Source of the DNA: Diphasiastrum complanatum
Taxonomy: Eukaryota > Streptophyta > Lycopodiopsida > Lycopodiales > Lycopodiaceae
Direction of reading: 5' to 3'
Length of the DNA: 64,000 bases
Assembly: GCA_029204225.1 (NCBI GenBank)
Contig: CM055096.1
Location: 29,752,995-29,816,994, forward strand
Part shown: in pieces, positions 2,299 to 58,658 of the stretch
Layout: each line of letters starts with the position of its first letter
Position numbering within the stretch: position 1 is the first letter of the stretch
Translations under genes and position numbers: made by a program
Notes under the pieces: generated by a model
What the model was told of the DNA's origin: nothing
The model's database searches: none
The model's input: only the letters and a program-made list of their open reading frames with translations

Positions 2299-3481
2299 TT
2301 GATCCTTGTTCGATAGCAGTGCCGGTATTGCTCCACTGGCGAGCATAAGAGATGGCGGATGGCGAGCAAAATTCTTCGTCTCCTACAGTCTTTCTTGCTG
2401 CCTTCTTCGGGGAGATGGAGGGATAGAGAAATAGAGGACGCTGGGGCATTTTGCATTCTAGGCGCGCCCACTTGGATTTTTGCCACTTGGAGGGTATAAG
2501 AGCGTTGATTGTAAATACGTGGCATAATCTGAACGCTCACTAGAAAATCCAACCGCCATGAGAGATACGCAGTCATGAGGTGGGGGAGGGGGCCTGGGGG
2601 CGTGAAAGCACGGGCGTGGGAGCGGTTTGGTCCGGTGGCCCCAGGAGCTGATGCGTGCCCAGCGCGCAGTGCCTGTCAAAAATCAATTTTTCGCGGGCGG
2701 CGCCAGGCCGCGGTCCCGGGCACCCCGCAGTGGGGGGGGGGTGTGGATTTAGATAATAACTCAAATAATTAGATACAATCCTTGACAATGATGTCAACAA
2801 GCTTTAATCTTTGGGACCCCCCAATAGCCTTAAGATGAGATGGGGTATGGCCACGCCACTCACAAAAGGAGAGATGTTAGGGTGGCTTGGGAAGGAAGTC
2901 CTCTGGCGTTAAATTATATTGGTTTGGAGTGTTGAGCACATGTTAGTTGGCCTTTTTTTTTTCTCTCTAACTTGCACAAAGTGGAAGTTGAGTGGCAACT
3001 TGGAGCCTTGGTTTGGGGACGTCAAGGGACTTTCCCAAGAGGGAACTGCACAAAGAGGGCCATGACTCCTAGCAGCCCAATAAGAGGCCATGACTCCTTT
3101 AGCGATCCAATAAGAAGCAAGTACAACAAGCATAGACGGCGAAGTAGGAGGGAGCTCGAGGTGGGGTGGGGCCTCTCCATGTGAAACAGGGTTCTTGCAA
3201 GGGCCTTGGGGGAGGGCTTAGTTCGCCCGCCCCAAAAAACAAAAATGTGAACCTACCCTTAGCATGTTCACCTGCTTCTCATTTCATGAATATAGAGTGT
3301 GAGTCATGAACAACAAGTCAAAACTCTCAATAACCTGCCCCTTTATAATAAGTAAAGGATTAACCTAATAAACCGAAATTTTAAAATGGTAATGTCTCAT
3401 TTTATAAGATTAAAAATAGATAGCGTCTCATTGAAAATTTGTTCAAACCTCGAAAATTATTGTATATCTAGTGTCCAAAAT
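2299..3481. other. 5' flank of the PH gene and intergenic DNA with GC-rich patches
   Basis: No gene was recognised. About 160 bp upstream of the PH start is a GGCGCGCCC motif (2461-2470). At 2590-2740 there is a strongly GC-rich patch ending in a G run near 2732-2741. Both are unlike the AT-rich surroundings and resemble patches near 7.06, 9.6 and 55.6 kb. The short reading frames on both strands show no family match and look like GC-driven open frames. Confidence 0.4.
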
Positions 3482-3522
3482 GAGAGAGAGAGAGAGAGAG
3501 AGAGAGTGAGAGAGAGTGAGAG
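3482..3522. repeat. Imperfect (GA)n microsatellite
   Basis: GA dinucleotide tract of about 41 bp interrupted by two GTGA variants. Confidence 0.9.
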
Positions 3523-9793
<6,271 letters not shown>

Positions 9794-9917: not shown

Positions 9918-30305
<20,388 letters not shown>

Positions 30306-37177: not shown

Positions 37178-38990
37178 CTATTCGAGCTGTAAGATATTCC
37201 ATAAGCAAGTGCATGAAGATTGGTTATGCCAATCTGGATAAGGATGTAGAAGGGTGATAAGGTTGGCCAGTTCCAGCTTTATTAGGTCCTTGACCTTGCC
37301 AAGTAAAATATAGCCGCCTCTAGACTTGTTGTATGGATATTTCTTGATGAAAAGGGTGTGAAAAAGGTAGAAAACAACAGGCGAACCAGGTTGATTCTTC
37401 TTTTTCTTTTTATTAACAATTCCTTTTGTCAGATTATTAAGCGGTGCTGCTAACTTAGCATAATTCTCAATAAATCTCTTGAAGAAAAGTGTAAAACCTA
37501 AAAAAGACTTTAGTTGCCTCACAGTTCCTAGAATTGGCCACTCAATCACAATCTTGATTTTATCCTCGTCAATCTTGATCCCATTTACTGTGATCTTACG
37601 ACCGAGATAAAGCAACTCTTGCTTAAAGAATTCACACTTGGAATCTTTAGCGTAGAGTAACTCCCGACAGAGTTTCATCAAGACAATTCTTAAGTGTTCT
37701 ATGTGTTCCACCAAGGATTTATTGTAAACGAGAATGTCGTCTAAGAATACCACCTCAAACTTTCCCAAATATGGACAAAATAAATCGTTTATCATTTGCT
37801 GGAACGTTGCTGGAGCATTTGTTATCCAAATGGCAACATTAGAAATTCATAATGACCAAATCTAGAATGAAATCCTATCTTTTGGACATCTTCCGACTTA
37901 ATTCTTATTTGATGGTACCCTGTCCTGAGATCTATCTTGGTGAAATACCGTGCTCCACCCAAGCGATCTACAAGGTCATCCATCCTGGGTAATGGATATT
38001 TATTTTTAATAGTCACTTTATTAAGCCCCTTGTAATCCACACACATCCGGAAACCTCCATCTTTCTTTGCTTTAAGAAGAACAGGAGCGTCCCATAGTGA
38101 TTTACTAGGTTGAATATGTCCCATCCTTAGGTAGTTTTCTATTTGATTTGAAATCTCTGTCTCCTCTTTCGGAGAGAACATATAAGGTTGTCTAGAGACA
38201 GGTTGACTTCCTGGAATTAACTCAATCATGTGGTCTACTGACCTAGACGGTGGTAAACCATGAGGTAATTCAGATGGAAAAACATCCCTAAATTCATTTA
38301 TGATATGTTCTTTCACTTCTTGTTCATGATCTAAATTTACTGAGTTAAGAATTGCTGAGAATTCACAACCATTTAGATTCATTTCAAGAACATCCACAAC
38401 TGGAATAACATAAATTGAAAAAACTTCATACTCAGAATAATCCAATGTTTCCATTTTATTAACTGTAGAAATATGATCCAACAGACGTACAAAATTACTG
38501 CCATATAATGTAACTATCTTATCACCCTCCTTGAAAGTGAGAAATGCTTCTCAAAATCAATCAATAGAGAAGGCGGTTTACTAAATACCCATTCGTAACC
38601 TAAGATTAAATCAGTACGAGCTAGGTCTAAAATATGAAAATTAACTAATTCCGTGTGTCCTTGCATCAAAACTGGGAGCTTCGGGACTTTTATGTTCCAA
38701 GTCTCCAACTCTGCTCCTGAAGCTAGATAAACTTTATATCTATGAGATTGGGTGAAGACATCAATTTGACTTGATTCAACAGAACCTCCACTTGCTGATC
38801 TCTCATCTGATTACGATTATTCATATCATTGAGTGCCGTACTCAACTGCTGACAAATCACCATATAAGATGGTGCACCTGGATTTGCAGCTTGATTTGAA
38901 GTTTCTTTGGCCATCTCGATATATCTATCATGGAAATTACTAAATTTAGTTGATATCAAATTAACCCATAGTGAAATATTGTTGACCAAA
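37178..38990 (-). mobile_element. Ty3/gypsy fragment: gag end, protease, reverse transcriptase, start of RNase H (fossil)
   Basis: Minus-strand order from 38990 down: a gag-like segment, a protease segment (DLARTDLILGYEWV), the RT ([73 protein letters not shown]), then the palm strand VVFLDDILVYNKS and the RNase H entry (LKSFLGFTLFFKRFI, KLAAPLNNLTKG). Long open stretches survive, so it is younger than its relative at 25 kb, but it has a few breaks and lacks integrase. No LTR was assigned. Confidence 0.9.
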
Positions 38991-43400: not shown

Positions 43401-46400
43401 CGACATTCAAACAAGTTGAGAGAGAATTATTCTCCATTCCATATAGTGATTTGTTAGTGAGCTACGTAAATCTTCATCATTTCCAATGATTACAATATCA
43501 TCAACATTCAAAACTGCCAAAGCAAATTCTCATTAAAAGTTAATAAGTTGGAAAAGAAGAAATCCATACAAAATCATTTGAAAGAAAAATTTTGCCAATA
43601 CAATTGTGTCATGCACGCCGTTGGACCTTACTTTAAGCCATTCAAAGCCTTTTTCAATCTACACACATTTCCTTCAAGTCTCTTGACATTGAAGTCCTTT
43701 GGTTGCACCATCATTAAACTTCTTCTTCAAGATACTCATTCCAAAATTTTGACTTCACATCCACTTTGTGATGTCTGCAACCAAAGCCTGATGGAATTGC
43801 AATAACTAATGACGTAAAGTTTTCCACTTCATCCGACAAGAGTAAATGTTTCTTCATATTCAATTATTTACTTGCCTTTGACTACAAGCCTAGCTTTGTA
43901 CTTTTCTATTGAACCACCATATGCTTTGTACTCTATTCTATAAACCCATTTGTATCCAATAGGTATCTTACCATGCAAAAGATCTTCCAATCGTCAAGAG
44001 CCTTGTAATTCGATTGAATGACATTGTTAGTGATTGAGACTTCAAGCTCACTGGGAGATTTTGGTGGTCAGTTTTTGAAAAACTTGTAGCAAACCCTAGT
44101 TTGAGTTCTTAAATCACCTAAAAGTTGATGGGCAAATGGACATATCAATTACCAGATTGTGGAGGACATGCTTAGAGCATATGTATCTAGGCAGTTTGAT
44201 TGGAGATTGTTTTTTCTCAATAGTTGAGTTAATGCACAATGATGTTAGACATTATACCACTAGATTTTGTTCTTTTATGTTGATGGATGGCTTTCAACTG
44301 ATGCACTAGTTTATTTTAGATTCAAAAGTCTCAAGATGCAATCTGTAGCTGATTTCTTGTAGGATATGCAAGAAATCAGCTATCGATGGACACAAGTAAA
44401 ACATCAAACTTCAATTATCTTCACCCCCAAGCTACAGTGACTAAATACAGGAGAGGAGAGATTTTTGACAACTAAATACCAGAATTTGAAAATGGATTAG
44501 GGCACGTTTCTGTATGTACACACACACACACTAGACTCCTGGAGCCTAGGAATATTCCTTGTAAAACATTGGTTTTTTACTAAACTCATATTCCATTGCT
44601 ATTGATAGCCCTCTGCATGCATAAAGTCATCAATCAACATGCACTACTCCACATGTCCTAATTGGAGTGCATGGGCCCTCACAAGGTTATTAATCACATT
44701 TCTGGCATAGTTAGAAATGATGAGATGTAACTAATGAACTCATACATTGGAGGATCTCTTGATGCTAAATAACATATTCTCTAAATCGGACATAGACGTA
44801 ACATTGAGGATCTCTTGATGCTAAATAACTACAATGTAGTGTGAGATTTCAAATCACTCATTAGACATATTTTGAATCCAAAAAGATCCTATAAGGAGTG
44901 CCAACTAGGAGAGAGAGAAATTAAATGCTCAAGGCTACCTACATTTAGTTGTGGACAACTATGTTCACATTATGTAAATTTGTGCACATTGGTTTATTCA
45001 CCTTATTTTGAGTAGATCTCATGATAGGCAATTAGAATCTATGTTCACGTTGTGGGTGTTACTCACATGTTATATACATACAACACACATAGACAAACAT
45101 TATTTTGCCTTGTGTAGTTGAAAAGTCAAAAGATGTTTTTGTAGAAAGAATCTTTCTTAAATAGTATCTCTTGCCTTACTAGATTTGCAACTTTTGATGA
45201 ATGGAAGTTTGCATACTTTTGTATGGAGCAATTTGTTTTACTTGGATTTGGATCTTCTCAAATTCTGCCAGAGTGTACAAGTTAGCATCTGGTCAGAGGA
45301 AGATGGCACCAAGTTAAGCCAAGGCACACTTGAAAAGTTGGATGGAGAGAATACAGTTTTGTAGCTTGAAATCCACTTATCAATGAGGACGTACATATGA
45401 ATGCAAGAAGACTCGTATAAAACTGAAATGGAGATCAATTTTCAGAATCATTTACAATCTAGTGGTCTCAAACTCTCACTAAGAACATGATTTTTGTTTG
45501 AGATAGCTACTGAGTCAAGTAGTTTTACTTGGGTTTTTACTGGATCCCGTCTCAGAAAAAGAGAAGAAAAAAGGAAAAGTTGGAAATTTGAATGGGTACA
45601 TATAGCAGGTTATTAAGTTTAATGGGTACATATAGCAGGTACATTATTTGCCAATTGTTTCTATCAATTTGGACGTTGGCTCTCTGTTTTGGTTTTACAG
45701 TTATCCAGTATGCTATTTAGCTGTCTATAGGTTTTTGGTCAAACTAGTGATCTTAACATTCATGGAGGTTAAACATACCTTTTCCTTTTGCATATTTTAA
45801 CACATCGTCCATATGTACTGCACCGTTGGACTTAGTTGGACGTTTATTCTTTTGCACATGCCCAAGACATTGAGGTATTGGGTTTCGCATACTGAGTTTA
45901 ATGTGCTAATGCTGTTTGTGTTGTTTTGCAGTGTCTCCATATTTTTCATGGCTAAAGAAAAAGCAGAATGCAGTTTGATTTCTTTGAAACCCAAAATTTT
46001 TACCCCTGTTCTTCAACATTTCAAGGAAGGAATGCATCAGAAATTTATTCAGGATTCTGGCAGTGGTGTGAACCTTCGTTTATTCAGTGATGTGGATCTT
46101 AGTAAGGTAGGTAAAGACAATGTATACCCTCTTGTAGTTAGGATGGATATATGGACCAAGGGGCAGCCATTTGATGCTGCTGCCAGAGATTCTGAACAAC
46201 CGGGTTCAAGCTTGTCGAAGTCGGCAACATCTCAAATGATCCATGCTGTCATAGAAAGAAAGAACGAAGATTATAAGGTCAGAGTCATACAGCGGATTAT
46301 TTGGATGGATGGAACGAGATATGAGCTTTATAGTATTTATGGTGTTTCCAAAAATGAAAATGACTCAGAAAAACAGTGCGTGATCTGTATGTCAGAACCT

Positions 46401-47020
46401 AAAAATACAACAGTCTTCCCTTGCAGACACATGGTAAGCAGGTTTTGCTGGACTACATGAACTGGAAAACTGGAATATAGAAGAGTGTCTTTTTCTGAAC
46501 AAGCTTTATGTGACGTTTTGGGACTATTCAAAGTTGGCTGCTTATTCCAATTTCTTTGAGCTAGTCAGGGTTTGTAACTTTGTAGCATTACAAGTTTGTA
46601 CCAAAGAAGCTTTAGCCTTTCCAAAAATCTTTTCATATATTAGAATGAGCTTTGATTTGCAAGTGATCCGCGTCAAGCAGTAGGGGTTTGAGCAACTATG
46701 AGTTTTTGCTTTGCTATAGGTACATTACAACATCTCAATTTGACTTCTGACCTTAACTTTCCACATACAGTCTTTTGTACTCTGATGGGTTTTACATCTT
46801 TTATTGATAAAAGCATGAAACCTCTTCTTTTGAGTACCTATATGTTCTTAGTGCTGTCTATTCATAGCATATGGCTAATCTGGCTTGTGGGGTTTTTGTT
46901 TTTTTGCAGTGCATGTGCAACAAGTGTGCAAAAGTGATTCGATCTCAATCAAACCTTTGCCCTATTTGCCGGCAGCCTGTAGTAAAATACTTGGAACTAA
47001 AAGATTTTGAGGGTTGGTGA
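40474..47020 (+). CDS. LUL: RING-type E3 ubiquitin ligase, LOG2-like (LUL) family, four exons
   Basis: Predicted ubiquitin ligase of the plant LOG2/LUL family. Exons are 40474-40561, 40732-40936, 45932-46433 and 46910-47020; all are GT-AG with consistent phase (1, 2, 0), total 906 bp, 301 residues, a little shorter than Arabidopsis members. The start MGIGYS matches an N-myristoylation site (Gly2, Ser6), as known for LUL proteins, so the enzyme should sit on membranes. Residues 65-235 hold the family domain: [12 protein letters not shown], then after the intron [45 protein letters not shown] and [16 protein letters not shown]. The C-terminus is a C3HC4 RING (about residues 247-285): CVIC, PCRHM, CMCNKC, CPICRQP. 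The family recognises membrane partners and ubiquitinates them; the target here is unknown. Exon 2 could also start at 40679 (TTTCAG), but that frame closes within eight codons, so 40732 is preferred. Confidence 0.92.
40922..41050 (+). repeat. Tandem duplication of the exon 2 donor region
   Basis: A 62-bp segment that includes the last bases of exon 2 and its donor (40922-40983) is followed by a diverged copy (40988-41050). The first copy has GGAAGGTAAGC, the second GGAAGATAAGC, so only the first keeps a GT donor. The duplicate is therefore intronic. Confidence 0.85.
41051..42440. other. RING-ligase intron 2, left part
   Basis: AT-rich intronic DNA with short diverged internal repeats (GCCAAGTTGTCA near 41872 and 42089). 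No domain was recognised. Confidence 0.35.
42450..44060 (-). mobile_element. Degenerate Ty1/copia remnant in RING-ligase intron 2 (fossil)
   Basis: On the minus strand, 44060 down to about 43540 gives broken copia RT text ([47 protein letters not shown]). The lower part, near 42.5-42.7 kb, gives text like the end of copia RNase H ([14 protein letters not shown]). It has many breaks and is clearly old. It is opposite in orientation to the host gene. Confidence 0.65.
44061..45931. other. RING-ligase intron 2, right part
   Basis: AT-rich intronic DNA. It contains a near-perfect hairpin at 44347-44381 (AGCTGATTTCTTG, 9-base loop, CAAGAAATCAGCT), a repeated 24-bp phrase (GAGGATCTCTTGATGC, near 44753 and 44808) and a short CA tract near 44518. 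No gene was recognised. The intron ends in TTGTTTTGCAG. Confidence 0.45.
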
Positions 47021-50411: not shown

Positions 50412-50416
50412 GAAGA

Positions 50417-51117
50417 TGTGAAGAATTGCCAAAAATTGGCAAATCTAGCTTGATCAAAAACCATGTAGAATAGTGTAAATTGTGTACACAAGTGGGTCCC
50501 ACACATGTGAGGCCATGATGCCACATGGGAAATCCATCCTAATGTAGGTTAGGTCAAGTCAAGAGATTTGGTCATGTCTATTTGGTGGTCATCCCTACTT
50601 TACAGGACCTACACCTAAGTTTAAGGTGAAAATTTGACCAACTAGCTACCTACCAAGCATAACTCTAGGAAATAGACTAGGGTTTCGTTTTAGGTCAAGG
50701 AGAGTGAGTTAACTTCCTTATTACATGCTGGAAATCCACCTAACTTCAAGAAGGAAGTCCAATTTGCTATGTATTCCCTCTCTTCATAGTGTGAAGATAG
50801 AAAATTTTTGGAGCTCATTGGCAATCTCAAGCTAGTTCACTATGTACATTGAGTTTTTGTGATCCAAATGAAACCAAATCAATTTCTACTTGTTTCTCAG
50901 GTTGAAGGCCGTACTACAGCCTGTAGTACACACGTGTGGGCTCGGATTTCAATGTTTATCAATGCTTTTGATTGTTAATGCTTGTTGTTTGTCAAATCGC
51001 CAATCTAGATCAACTTTTTTGTGTCTAGTTTTTTGATAGATTGCTAAGCAAGCATCCAATCACTCTTGTGGATCTTCTGTAGATCCATTTATGGTCTTAA
51101 AGTACATTACTTTCACA
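50417..51117 (+). repeat. 5' LTR of the copia element (701 bp)
   Basis: TG...CA-ended repeat, nearly identical to the 3' LTR. The only length difference is one 15-bp unit present twice in the 3' copy. Confidence 0.95.
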
Positions 51118-51130
51118 TGGTATCAGAGCC
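51118..51130 (+). promoter_or_regulatory. Primer-binding site of the copia element
   Basis: TGGTATCAGAGCC immediately follows the LTR, the usual initiator-tRNA-Met complement of copia elements. Confidence 0.9.
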
Positions 51131-51550
51131 AAGTACAAGAGCATAAGCCATTGATCTAATGCAAATCCATTTTTAGCAAGTTTTGGTGCTAAAAACTAGT
51201 ATTGAGAGGGCAAGCTAGAATCTTGATTTTGGTGAGGAGATTTGATCCCAAACTTGGTAGGGGTCCAAATCCGTACTGTCCACATGTGTGGGCACCTCTG
51301 AACCTGCATTTAATGCATGGTATTCATTTGATCCAAAAAAATTCAATTTGTGAGCTGTTGGTGTAATTTTTGGTGGAGATCCTAGGATAATCTACCAAGA
51401 TCATTTGCCATTGATTAGATTAATTGATTTCATGGAATCTAATTAATCTAGGCTGAGTTCAAGTCCTATTAAGGTTAAAAACAGGTCTTGAAAGTACACC
51501 AAGAATGAAGAAAGAGATTAAGTCATTTTTTTGTCCAAAAATAGCCAAAA

Positions 51551-51895
51551 TTGGCAAGATTTGATTGTAAGTAGATTTCACATCATCTTATCTTCATTCC
51601 AACTTTGTGAGGGAGTGCTAGAACTGAGATTATAAGTCCATTTGTTGGATTAGAAATCTAATTTGAGTGAAAAACTACAAGAGAGAGACCTTAGTGAGTT
51701 TCTAGAGACAATCAAATCCATTTCTTGGCAAGATTTGTTTGAAAGTAGTTTTCACTTCATCTTATCTTCATTCCAGCTTTGTGAGGGAGTGATAGAACTG
51801 TGATTATAAGTCCATTTGTTAGATTAGAAATCAAATTTGAGTGAAACACTGCAAGTGTGAGACCTTTGTGAGTTTCAAGTCAATCAAATCTATTT
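51551..51895 (+). repeat. Tandem 174-bp repeat in the element's leader
   Basis: Copies start at 51551 and 51725 (TTGGCAAGATTTG) and are about 85-90 percent alike. Both lie between the primer site and gag, in the untranslated leader where packaging signals usually sit. Confidence 0.8.
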
Positions 51896-51917
51896 CTTGT
51901 TTGTAGAAGTCACTAGT

Positions 51918-52717
51918 AAGATGGGATCTGCTGGAGCATACCTTCTAGAAGCTAGTGAGAGGTTGAATTCTACAAATTATGCTATTTGGAAGGTTAGAAT
52001 GGAGTCACTCTTGGTGCTCCAAGACCTTTATGAGTTCTTGATTGAAGATGAAGATGAACCTCTAGGTGCACAAGAGTTAGCTAGATACAAGAAGAGATCT
52101 AGGCTTGCACTTCATTGTGTGAAGATGAATGTGAGCAATGATTTGTTGAGAGAAGTATCAGCATGTACTAGTGCTAAAGAGGCTTGGGAGTCTTTAAAAT
52201 CAATCTATGAGTCTAGCAACACTTCTAGAGTTCTTATGCTTAGAAATCAAATTTTGCAAAGCATGAGAAGAAGTGAGGAGAGTGCACATGATTATGTACT
52301 CAGAATCAAGTCTCTAAATAGGGAGTTGGCTTCCATTGGAGAGAAGATTCATGATGGAGAGCTTGTACAAATTGTCCTTAATGGTCTAGGAGATGACTTT
52401 GCAAATTTGGTCCAAAGTTTTGCCATCCAAAACACTTTGCCAACTATAGAAAAACTTCACAGTGTATTAGTGGCTGAAGAGTGTAGGATGCTCCATGCAA
52501 AATCTAGGATGAGTTCCTTGTCTTTGCAGGATGGTGATGAGAAAGCCAATTTCTCAGTCAAGGGCAAAAAGAAGACCAATGGACAGAAGAAGCATCCAAA
52601 GGAGGCCAAATAAGAGGATGATGCATCAAGCTCAAAGGACAAGTCAAAGCAAAAATGCTTCTTTTGTGGAAGGAAGGGGCATTATGCATTCGAATGCTAC
52701 AAGAGGCTAAGAGCACA
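51918..52717 (+). other. gag region of the copia element (fossil)
   Basis: Copia-type gag (UBN2-like): LNSTNYAIWKVRMESLL near its start, EAWESLKSIYES, then LRNQILQSMRRSEESAHDYV and IVLNGLGDDF, followed by a basic tail and a CCHC knuckle (CFFCGRKGHYAFEC). This is the structural protein that would form the particle and bind the element's RNA. Confidence 0.88.
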
Positions 52718-52718
52718 A

Positions 52719-54077
52719 GTGGAGGAGGACAAACAAGGAAACCTTGCAAAGGAGGAGGAGGAGGATGAAGTAGATGTATTCTTGATGGCATCTACATCCT
52801 CACCAACAAGCAATAGCAATTCAAGAGACAATTGGTGGATCGACAGTGGGGCTAGCTCCCACATGTCTTGTGAAAAGGACTTTTTCTCAACCTTACACTC
52901 TTTCAATGATGCTAAAAAGTTTGTCTTTACTGCAAATGATGAAGAGTGTAGGATAGATGGTGTTGGCACCATCTCTTTGTATCTAGAATCCTCAAAATGC
53001 ATGGATCTAGAAAATGTCCTTTATGTACCATCAATCACCAAGAATATGCTTAGTGTTGGTCTACTCTTAGAAAGTGGTTTGGATGTCCACTTTAAGCATG
53101 GTGTTTGCTTCATCTTGAAGAATGATGTTTGCATTGCAAAGGGATTTAAACATGGAAGATTGTTTAAGTTGGAAGCTAGTGTTGCTTTTGAAAGAATGAG
53201 CTTGGCAAAGGAGGAGATCACTCAAGAGGAGATCTTGGCAAAGTGTGATCTTGCTTGCATTGAGGAGGAGCATCAAAAGGAGGAAGATCTTGAGGATCAG
53301 CCTCAAAGCATGAGAGTTCCAAGGGATTCCTTAATGACAATGTCCAAGTCATCAAATTGCATGCAAATTGTCCATTCAAGTGTGCATCTTGCAAGGGTGG
53401 TGAGCATTGGAGAGTCTACTATCTTTGAATACTTTTTGGAAAGTATTAGTAGACATGAGGTGACTTGTTTCTTACCTTTAAGATTCATGGTGTTTATTAC
53501 TTTGTATGACAAGACAATGAAATGGGATGCTTTGAAATCTACATTTGTTGTTGATAAAGCAATTTCATTGGATAACTATTTTTGTAATAGTTTGAATAGT
53601 GTCATAAAAGATGAAACATCATTTGTATTGGAAATCTTTGGGTCCACATGCTTTGATCATGATCATTCCAATGTAAGGACCAAAGATTATCCTATTTCAA
53701 TGATAGGAATAATGGTAGTGTTTTGCTCTTCAAGTAGAGATTGTAGAATCTACTTGTTTTCAACCAAAGAATTTGTCAATGGTGGAAATGTGATCTTTCA
53801 AGAGTGGAGGATTTGTAAACTTGAAGAAGCACCTTTGGATCAACACATTATTCAATTCATTGATGTTTTGGAGTCAAGTCAAGTGGAGGAGCAAGCTCAA
53901 GACCCAAGGACTCCAAGAAGAACCTTGAGTATCAAGATGGAGCCATCTAGGCTCAATCATATGGATCAAGCAAGACAAGTTGTCTTTGGCAACATTATTT
54001 ATGCACTTAATATTTTAATTGATGTATCTTCAAGTGCACAAAATGCCTTGGAATCCATGGCTTGGCATGATGTTTAG
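52719..54077 (+). other. Protease and unrecognised C-terminal tail of the copia element (fossil)
   Basis: A 452-codon open frame. Near residue 40 is the aspartic-protease motif WWIDSGASSHM, followed by the usual copia order (LENVLYVPSITKNMLSVGLL, HGRLFKLEAS). A normal copia element would continue into the integrase zinc-binding region. Here the frame instead continues about 270 residues (from roughly residue 180) with no family that I recognise. The tail includes EYFLESISRHEVTCFLPL, TSFVLEIFGSTCFDHDHSN, FSTKEFVNGGNVIFQEW and PRTPRRTLSIKMEP. Confidence 0.85.
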
Positions 54078-54287
54078 TTTTGAAGTGTGCTACATGTATA
54101 TAGACACATTTATGGAACATCTTGTAAGGGATCCTCTAAGAGGTGGTGAAAGATCCTTCATGGACATCATTCTCTATTGGAGTCTCAAAAGTTCCTTCTT
54201 TGTAGCTGGATTTTTTAGACACTTCTAAAAGCTTTCATTGATCTATCAAGAGAGTTGTAAATAGATCAAGCTAAATTTGAGGAGGAG

Positions 54288-55003
54288 TGTGAAGAATTGC
54301 CAAAAATTGGCAAATCTAGCTTGATAAAAAACCATGTAGAATAGTGTAAATTGTGTACACAAGTGGGTCCCACACAAGTGGGTCCCACACATGTGAGGCC
54401 ATGATGCCACATGGGAAACCCATCCTAATGTAGGTTAGGTCAAGTCAAGAGATTTGGTCATGTCTATTTGGTGGTCATCCCTACTTTACAGGACCTACAC
54501 CTAAGTTTAAGGTGAAAATTTGACCAACTAGCCACCTACCAAGCATAACTCTAGGAAATAGACTAGGGTTTCATTTTAGGTCAAGGAGAGTGAGTTAACT
54601 TCCTTATTACATGCTGGAAATCCACCTAACTTCAAGAAGGAAGTCGAATTTGCTATGTATTCCCTCTCTTCATAGTGTGAAGATAGAAAATTTTTGGAGC
54701 TCATTGGCAATCTTAAGCTAGTTCACTATGTACATTGAGTTTTTGTGATCCAAATGAAACCAAATCAATTTCTACTTGTTTCTCAGGTTGAAGGCCGTAC
54801 TACAGCCTGTAGTACACACGTGTGGGCTCTGATTTCAATGTTTATCAATGCTTTTGATTGTTAATGCTTGTTGTTTGTCAAATTGCCAATCTAGATCAAC
54901 TTTTTTGTGTCTAGTTTTTTGATAGATTGTTAAGCAAGCATCCAATCACTCTTGTGGATCTTTTGTAGATCCATTTATGGTCCTAAAGTACAGTACTTTC
55001 ACA
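54288..55003 (+). repeat. 3' LTR of the copia element (716 bp)
   Basis: Matches the 5' LTR with about 12 substitutions plus one extra 15-bp tandem unit (ACAAGTGGGTCCCAC) near its start. Confidence 0.95.
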
Positions 55004-55008
55004 GAAGA

Positions 55009-56689: not shown

Positions 56690-58658
56690 TATTGAGAATG
56701 TGGTTATGGACACTGCTACAAGAATTGTCCATTGAGACCTGGGACCAACGCGCCATTGAACTTCATTACAATACAACAAGCAACAGTTCCAGCGGGGATG
56801 CCACCGGAAAGGCAACAATTCCATGCCCCTGTGTTAGCCATTACGCGAGCACAGAAGAGGAAGGAAGTGGCTCCCTCAACACCACCATCGGTCACTAATG
56901 GCCAACCCTCAACTTCAGTGCCATATCCGAATGTGAGGGAAGAAAGGAGACAATACCAGAAGATACGGCACTGGGTACAGAGAGCACAAGTAGAGGAAAC
57001 AGAGCAAGAAAAGAACAATCGTATGGAACCTCCTACTAATGGCAAACGGGAACCACGAACGGGCTCACCATTGCACACTTATCAAAATGATCGATTGCAT
57101 CATCATGAACCACCTTTCCACGTGGTGGAGCCCGAGGAACCGTGCACTGAAAGGCTCACAAGCTTATTGGTGAGCTGTGTTAGTTTGACCCTCGGGGAAT
57201 TACTGCGGATTGCGCCACAAGCTAAAAGCCTTTCGGCTTAATGGGCCAAGGCGGACGTGGAGCCAGTAGCGCCTGAGCCCATATATTGTGTGGGCTACGA
57301 AGAGACTAGTAACATCCTCCACATCGGGACAACGTGGGAAAGCGAGGTCGCGTATCAAGGGGAAAGAGGCTGCAGTCCAACCCGACGATGAGCTAGTTGA
57401 TGATGTCTTATTTTATGTAGACATGGTACCGGAATGGGCTGCCGACATAGTTGAATATCTAATGAGGGGCCAACCAGACAAATCACTACCAAAGGCAGAT
57501 CAGCGAAAATTGATCTTGAAAGCTAGACCTTATCAGCTGATTGCCGGCCAATTGTACCAAAGAGGACCAGATGGGATTCTTCGGCGATGTATTCTTCCAC
57601 ATGAGGCCACCCAGATTATTTTCCTTTCGCATTAAGGCATGGGTGGAGGCCATTTTGCATCCGACATTATTTTGCAATCAGGATGTTGGTGGTCAATGAT
57701 TCATAAGGATACGGAGGAATACCTAAGGAAGTGCGATGTGTGCCAAAGGGCGAGGATACCAACGAGATTGAATTATGACCTTCTGCACCCGGTCTTAGCT
57801 CAAGAACCATTTGAAAAGTGGGGATTGGATTACATTGGTCCAATTCACCCTATAGGAAGAAGTACCCAGGCTCGATACATAATCGTGACCATCGATTATC
57901 TCACCAAGTGGGTTGAAGCCAAGGCAGTAAGAGTGGCTGATGCTAGGATCACTGCCAAATTTCTCTATGAAAATATCATTGTGCGCTTTGGGTGCCCGGT
58001 GGAGATAGTCAGCGATCACGAGAGTCATTTTATCAATGAGACCATCAAGGTCCTATTGGAAGAATTCTTCGTGATCCATAGAACCAGTACGCCTTACTAT
58101 CCTCGCGATAATGGGCAAGCAAAATCATCCAATAAAATCATGTGTAGCGTGCTCACGAAAACAGTTGAAGCTAGCAGATCGGATTGGGAACACAAGTTGC
58201 ATGCTGTTCTGTGGGCATTCAGGACAGCATATAAGGGAAGCACTGATTAAATGCCATTCCAACTGGTATATGGTCAAGATGTTGTAATGTCAGTAGAGTT
58301 TTTAGTTCCCTCATTAAGGACTGCCACAACGCAACGCCTTGATGAATCCAGATCTCTACAATTATGCCACGAAGCTCTACATAAGCTCTGTGAAACACGC
58401 TTACTAGTTGTGCATGCACTGGTAGTTGAAAAGGAAAGACGCAAAGCATGGTTACAAAAGAAAGATCTTTGTTCCGGAGATCTAGTCGTGATGTATAAAA
58501 CCAAAGCGATCAAGGGGAAATTAAAATTCACAGACGAAGGTCCTTATCGGATCAAAAAAATTCTTAATCATGGAGCCGTGAACTTGGAGAAGCTAGATGG
58601 GACACCTTTCGATACACCCATCAATGGTAGCCGGTTGCACAAGTACTGGCCAGTGTAG
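56690..58658 (+). mobile_element. Ty3/gypsy fragment: gag end, integrase (fossil)
   Basis: The left part has a zinc-knuckle-like CGYGHCYKNC and a low-complexity linker. From about 57390 comes the pre-integrase region (KARPYQLIAGQLYQRGPDGI), the integrase zinc-binding text (GGGHFASDII, CDVCQRARIPTRL), core text (EKWGLDYIGPIHPIGRS, DYLTKWVEAKAV, RFGCPVEIVSDHESHF, YYPRDNGQAKSS, LWAFRTAYK) and a GPY/F-type end (GKLKFTDEGPYRIKKILN). Reverse transcriptase and RNase H are absent between the two parts. It has a few breaks. It is related to the RNase H-integrase fragment at 13.2-15.0 kb, but not closely. Confidence 0.9.

Follow-up and report, generated by a model that had tools for sequence, protein, structure and literature searches.

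Structure of the element

The window studied here is a 64,000-nucleotide stretch of the Diphasiastrum complanatum genome (assembly GCA_029204225.1, contig CM055096.1, positions 29,752,995 to 29,816,994 of the forward strand), and its subject is the long terminal repeat (LTR) retrotransposon found at positions 50,417 to 55,003 within it. The element very probably represents a high-copy semi-autonomous Ty1/copia family, whose source polyprotein would consist of Gag, a zinc knuckle, a protease and a dead integrase, and which, having lost reverse transcriptase (RT) and RNase H, would be moved in trans. This reading draws on the anatomy of the element, the abundance of its copies, the identity of the tail that follows the protease, the constraint on gag, the target-site duplications (TSDs), and the existence of relatives, in another family, whose integrase is complete and whose gag-pol frames are long, all of which can be read from the DNA itself. 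The features of the window copy are presented in Table 1.

Both LTRs start with TGTGAA and end with TTCACA (TG..CA ends). They present 12 mismatches among 701 aligned bases (689 identical), a Kimura two-parameter distance (K2P) of 0.0173, and their difference in length corresponds to the one 15-bp tandem duplication. An earlier interpretation of this stretch made from the letters alone (hereafter, the sequence-only reading) had described near-identical LTRs and a 5-bp TSD, and these boundaries hold. The assignment to Ty1/copia follows from the TG..CA LTRs, the 5-bp TSD, a primer binding site (PBS), a polypurine tract, a copia-type gag (PF14223), PF22936, and the order protease, integrase, SH3-like domain and RT start, in which integrase and RT are present as remnants only. 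The PBS, TGGTATCAGAGC, is presumably the complement of the 3' end of initiator tRNA-Met.

Positions 51861-54074 form one continuous frame in the window copy apart from an in-frame TAA at 52611-52613, which separates gag from the zinc knuckle. The sequence-only reading was right that gag and protease are carried (PF14223 and PF22936 both match), but it missed this stop. Given that the TAA is absent from all 28 of the other places where gag matches over its full length, it is private to the window copy; gag is open in most of these 28 places. The window copy is a recent insertion now bearing a private gag stop.

Table 1. Features of the element, in positions of the window.
Feature	Position	Strand	Remarks
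Target-site duplication GAAGA, left copy	50412-50416	+	Flanks the LTR pair
5' LTR	50417-51117	+	701 bp; TGTGAA...TTCACA
Primer binding site TGGTATCAGAGC	51118-51129	+	Adjoins the 5' LTR; relatives L061 and L072 have this 12-mer too
Imperfect direct repeat in the untranslated leader	51551-51879	+	155 bp; 51551-51705 and 51725-51879, 90% alike
gag, ended in the window copy by in-frame TAA	51921-52613	+	PF14223, E 1.9e-25
CCHC zinc knuckle	52656-52697	+	PF00098, E 0.003, below the curated cut-off; motif also read in the sequence
Protease region	52833-53219	+	WWIDSGASSH, D-S-G at 52842-52850; PF22936 Pol_BBD, E 9.6e-23
Tail: eroded integrase and RT start, by alignment to relatives	53220-54077	+	285 codons, then TAG 54075-54077
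Integrase catalytic core remnant, first part	53334-53507	+	Aligned with L055, L060, L043
SH3-like integrase C-terminal domain remnant	53628-53804	+	PF25597, E 1.6e-7, 31.6 bits
Integrase C-terminus and first RT residues, then stop	53805-54074	+	EPSRLNHMDQ...; ALESMAWHDV; aligned to L060
Polypurine tract GAGGAGGAG	54279-54287	+	Adjoins the 3' LTR; read in the sequence
3' LTR	54288-55003	+	716 bp; carries one tandem duplication of 15 bp
Target-site duplication GAAGA, right copy	55004-55008	+

Copies in the genome

The genome search returns best-scoring copies only, and the copy numbers given here are first-look candidate counts, of which only 40 (DNA) or 136 (protein) were scored, rather than verified totals. 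An LTR probe (the first 384 bases) yielded 387 candidates. Forty of these were scored; apart from the window itself, they (39 places) were 97-98% identical, and one further 61-base piece was also listed. With the tail DNA as probe there were 2,798 candidates, and the 40 scored (window included) were 99-100% identical (rounded) over 857 or 858 bases. When the tail protein was used as query, all 136 scored copies, again including the window, matched over 285 of 285 residues; no in-frame tail stop was present in 114 of them and one was present in each of the other 22. The whole gag-protease-tail frame, of 730-745 codons (about 738) and free of tail stops, was found in 40 of the 136.

Twenty copies were fetched with their surroundings. 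The junction between the tail and the 3' stretch is identical in all 20, and 15 present two full-length LTR matches, spanning 4,551-4,576 bp, while one full-length match is absent in the remaining five. A perfect 5-bp TSD flanks 13 of the 15 other copies with two full LTRs, and the median LTR divergence (K) of fetched copies with both LTRs is 0.0115. The 40 best LTR matches include four pairs with the spacing seen in the window (3.86-3.87 kb) and one pair separated by 2.7 kb. RT pieces were sought in the fetched loci with two copia RT stretches of the window as queries; among the fetched copies and LTR loci none lies inside the element, and all are in flanks (L005, L042, L043 with its partial duplicates L014 and L030, L050, and L053). 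Taken as a population, the sampled copies have neither RT nor integrase and keep an intact frame for gag and protease (GAG-Pro), as is characteristic of semi-autonomous GAG-Pro elements.

Because this structure recurs in many copies, it is not due to chance. These results bear out the sequence-only reading in describing a recently moved copia-type element with a tail common to its copies, and the family can be called recently amplified. That reading had also named, as grounds for abandoning it, the possibility that pol is missing from the window copy alone, the rest of the family being complete. The probability of such a private deletion is negligible: the same tail is present in every copy scored, the 3' junction is the same in every copy fetched, and four LTR pairs have window-like spacing. 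No point in its favour was found, and it was rejected.

Solo LTRs with a TSD occur at L004 (GCAAA) and at L007/L008 (ATATA, apparently one duplicated place), and at L003 an LTR also stands alone, but has no perfect 5-bp TSD. In L048, positions 1-1189 hold a second, more diverged copy (tail 95.9% identical) that is cut short at the fetched copy's 5' LTR. This looks like a younger copy inserted into an older one, the right half of which was not found in the locus. Several pairs of copies (L010/L011, L014 (L043)/L030, L024/L026, L025/L035 and L007/L008) have stops, deletions or flanks in common, and look like segmental duplications or uncollapsed haplotypes in the assembly. Concerning the 155-bp repeat of the leader, the double matches are present in 19 of the 20 fetched copies, the remaining copy having no leader; the repeat is possibly a packaging or dimerisation feature.

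Identity of the tail

The sequence-only reading held that the element has no integrase or RT and that its tail belongs to no known family. The first claim stands in so far as no integrase-core or RT Pfam match exists in the element (no rve, gag_pre-integrs or RVT_2); it fails in that the tail contains an integrase remnant and an RT start. The second claim does not survive: when the tail (53220-54074) is searched alone, the SH3-like family PF25597 scores above the Pfam cut-off (31.6 vs 27 bits).

The tail was compared with related copia elements that adjoin fetched copies, namely the neighbour in L055 and a family hereafter called R (L043, L060 and L062). The L055 neighbour presents gag, protease and an integrase with gag_pre-integrs and rve. 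In family R, a profile search on L060 gives gag_pre-integrs, rve and SH3 (84.5 bits), followed by RVT_2. The related copia element in L055 occupies 3281-7001, where an LTR end, PBS, gag, protease and integrase are recognised, and it lies next to a truncated copy of the present family.

The tail is collinear with these relatives: it presents the first part of the core, then the SH3-like domain, a basic stretch ('EPSRL') and the beginning of RT, and ends at TAG. The zinc-finger region of integrase is unrecognisable. The first catalytic Asp is replaced by Ser (codon 53379-53381), with HSDVH in relatives and HSSVH in the tail, and a decayed L043 copy presents HSGVH at the same site. The second Asp and the Glu belong to a block that is absent or unalignable. 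Over 53805-54074, the tail (EPSRLNHMDQ...; ALESMAWHDV) aligns to PKRSTRTRIEPSRLTYSDK...EEANKSQYW in L060, which leads into PF07727; at the RT start, ALESMAWHDV stands against EEANKSQYW. The remnants of the core, SH3 domain and RT start share a single reading frame that spans at least one large deletion.

On these alignments, the tail is an eroded remnant of a copia integrase and not a new protein, which is the match to a known pol domain that the sequence-only reading had set down as telling against itself. Because catalytic residues are missing, the tail would be inactive by known integrase chemistry. The complete integrase, RT and RNase H of an autonomous copia element are likewise not found. 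An RNase H remnant was sought in the 3' non-coding stretch (54078-54287) by three-frame comparison with the DNA then collected, and nothing credible was obtained. A scan of the window against Rfam at gathering scores gave zero matches, and no relatives were confirmed among the viral contigs searched.

The tail could instead descend from a captured host gene, as is reportedly the case in maize Bs1, and it is true that 53220-53627 and 53805-54074, when searched alone, have zero Pfam matches. Against this, a single frame of the tail is collinear with the relatives, from integrase core through SH3 domain to the beginning of RT; this origin was rejected on that basis and is highly improbable.

A candidate helper

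Family R is the closest relative seen, with 68.8% amino-acid identity in gag and 61.4% in the zinc knuckle and protease. The proteases of neighbouring copia elements are less alike, at 44-49% (L002, L004, L006, L050 and L055) and 28% (L053). The PBS is the same in the element, L061 and L072; inspection of L059 did not reveal it, and the sequence of L073 does not reach its position. Across the LTR end and PBS, DNA identity to R is 77-82% (135 and 92 aligned bases). Agreement at the LTR termini is partial: the TGTGAA start is common to the element and L072, and the LTR end of L061 is TTTTCACA, which shares its TTTCACA end with the element. Family R yielded 2,760 first-look DNA candidates. Given that 2 of 141 scored R protein matches lie in frames of 1,327 codons, complete R frames exist. 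From these similarities, R, with its complete integrase, is a likely helper.

Mobilisation would then most likely proceed as follows. The LTR would drive an RNA from which intact copies translate Gag, protease and tail, and this RNA would be packaged in particles to which the family's own Gag contributes. An R-type element would supply RT, RNase H and integrase; reverse transcription by the helper RT would be primed at the common PBS, and the helper integrase would act on the similar LTR ends, yielding the 5-bp TSD upon integration.

Some observations speak against this pairing. The LTR bodies of the element and R are unalignable beyond the last 65-85 bp, and the termini agree in part only, with L061 starting TATGAA and L072 ending TTTGACA. 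Moreover, a closer helper, or a complete copy with the same LTR, could hide beyond the best-scoring places.

Selection on gag, protease and tail

In comparison with R, gag and protease present a proportion of synonymous differences (pS) of 0.68-0.77, saturated or nearly so, and a proportion of nonsynonymous differences (pN) of 0.18-0.20. For the tail segments against the relatives, pN is 0.41-0.54 and pS is 0.69-0.76. Of the columns invariant in the relatives, the element keeps 43 of 54 in the protease. The core part has 41 such columns, of which 36 align and 12 are kept; the SH3 region has 37, of which 36 align and 14 are kept. Much of the constraint on the tail was thus lost after the integrase died.

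Selection during the recent burst was evaluated by sorting variants according to the number of copies that carry them, after removal of near-duplicates, which left 29 gag, 31 zinc-knuckle/protease and 39 tail rows. Of the 45 tails used, 39 (including the window) are the most window-like tails, and six entered via LTR similarity. Variant density in the leader was excluded, as most loci include the leader only in part. The p values of this analysis are one-sided and uncorrected for the number of tests. Singleton variants present a synonymous excess in no part (gag, zinc knuckle/protease or tail). Among variants in at least two copies, gag presents 18 nonsynonymous (N), 17 synonymous (S) and one stop (n=36; p=0.002 for excess synonymous), and the zinc knuckle/protease presents N14, S11 and one stop (n=26; p=0.03). 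The tail presents N26, S10 and no stop (n=36), and no synonymous excess is found there (p=0.31). For alleles in at least four copies the counts are S6/N2 in gag, S4/N3 in the zinc knuckle/protease and S0/N10 in the tail, the difference between tail and gag having a Fisher p of 0.0015. On these counts, source elements keep a working Gag and probably a working protease. Amino-acid constraint on the tail in the recent lineages is not detectable.

An early count on 36 tails (shared N20/S12 vs singletons N55/S11) looked like present amino-acid selection on the tail. This hint, which told against the interpretation favoured here, disappeared with 45 tails and with the 39 left after near-duplicate removal, and was rejected.

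Given these counts, the tail protein itself is unlikely to be at work and evolving fast, for instance as an SH3-like partner of a helper enzyme (integrase or RT), or as the portion of the Gag-protease product that serves targeting or binds RNA. Such a role would agree with the score of the SH3-like profile (31.6 bits against a cut-off of 27), with the 114 stop-free tails among the 136 scored, and with a pN below pS against relatives; yet no recent amino-acid constraint is detected in the tail whereas the same method detects it in gag, and only 14 of the 36 aligned conserved columns of the SH3 region are kept.

Drift was simulated from the present tail without insertions or deletions. At 0.25 substitutions per site (59% amino-acid identity), 7 of 3,000 tails remained open; at 0.3 and at 0.4 substitutions per site, none of 3,000 did. 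That the tail is open despite heavy loss of conserved residues suggests, but does not prove, frame-keeping selection. We therefore put forward, tentatively and as a rather doubtful proposal, that the tail is selected to stay open but not for its sequence, a dead integrase serving as reading-frame filler. An early stop would then be costly to the RNA or the polyprotein, for instance through decay triggered by a long 3' untranslated region, and the filler would hold the stop about 200 bases from the 3' LTR so that the packaged RNA escapes decay. Alternatively, the tail may be mere C-terminal mass of the Gag-protease polyprotein. The suggestion of the sequence-only reading that the tail may be selected is, accordingly, sustained at most for the open frame, and not for the amino acids (N26/S10 in shared variants; N10/S0 in the most frequent).

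Four points weigh against selection on the frame only. The pN of the tail is below its pS, and part of its amino-acid history was therefore constrained. The zero common tail stops, against 2.1 expected, are not a significant deficit (p=0.12). When all variants in at least two copies are considered, tail and gag are not significantly different (Fisher p=0.14). Finally, the proposal comes from one family, which was flagged because its tail was open.

It is quite possible, although somewhat short of an even chance, that the tail is a neutral leftover from the family's founding deletion, and that it is open only because integrase was lost recently or by luck. The shared tail variants (N26/S10) agree with this, as do the alleles in at least four copies, 10 of 10 of which are nonsynonymous. 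Stops have also been gained after insertion in 22 of the 136 scored tails, and in 8 of 32 other places on the nearest list a stop or frameshift interrupts the copy. Neutral decay accounts less well for a tail that has lost most conserved integrase residues, since equal drift leaves 7 or none of 3,000 open even without insertions or deletions, and for the common frame of the core, SH3 and RT-start remnants, which is kept over at least one large deletion.

Comparison with known systems

The sequence-only reading had compared the element with gag-only and gag-protease elements mobilised in trans, and this comparison is apt, as the family must be mobilised in trans. TR-GAG elements have terminal repeats and gag as their only coding domain, and are mobilised in trans. 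The present element differs from TR-GAG in that protease and an integrase remnant follow gag in frame. PlantLTRdb lists TR-GAG, BARE-2 and a large 'nonautonomous Copia' class (PMC10025401). Barley BARE2 is, like the present family, a non-autonomous Copia element that relies on a relative for a missing protein, but it cannot make Gag and keeps pol, the reverse of what is found here (PMC3735527). In the present family, gag is open in most places and constrained, and RT is absent from the element.

The closest likeness is to wheat. The published description calls RLG_Sabrina_SA and RLG_WHAM 'semi-autonomous', encoding GAG and proteinase without RT and integrase, and names the autonomous partner of such elements by criteria that include PBS and LTR termini (PMC9744471). 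As in the present family, these elements reach high copy and have GAG and protease but no RT or integrase; the proposal made for them, as here, is that they supply Gag while the autonomous partner mobilises them (PMC9744471). Sabrina_SA and WHAM are Gypsy elements in that description, whereas the present element is Copia, and its frame continues through a decayed integrase to the beginning of RT. RLG_Quinta, whose helper is RLG_Cereba, is likewise non-autonomous and has GAG with an in-frame domain of unknown function, and it has PBS and LTR termini in common with the autonomous relative (PMC11302176). It differs in being Gypsy and centromere-specific, with part of the LTR strongly shared, and its DUF1 is there given as of unknown origin, whereas the present tail is traced to integrase (PMC11302176).

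On sequence grounds, the present family is a copia counterpart of the semi-autonomous GAG-Pro elements of wheat. A limited literature search (titles and abstract openings) found no copia GAG-Pro family with an open decayed integrase, which is not proof of absence. The semi-autonomous GAG-Pro lifestyle, described for wheat Gypsy elements, would thereby extend to a high-copy Copia family. The tail also points to one origin of an apparent unknown domain after the protease, namely an integrase eroding in frame, and is a naturally occurring example in which to ask if the RNA of a retrotransposon must stay open in frame as far as the 3' LTR. Should this be required, some 'unknown' tails of non-autonomous elements would be frame-keepers and not new proteins.

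Other features of the window

Translations inspected by eye show open stretches like decayed Gypsy and Copia pol at 14182-17708, 37178-38550 and 56696-58250 of the window. Two exon-like open stretches were also noticed by eye: one like a RING-finger protein at 45801-46460 (+), and one like a nucleobase-ascorbate transporter at 21611-22084 (-).

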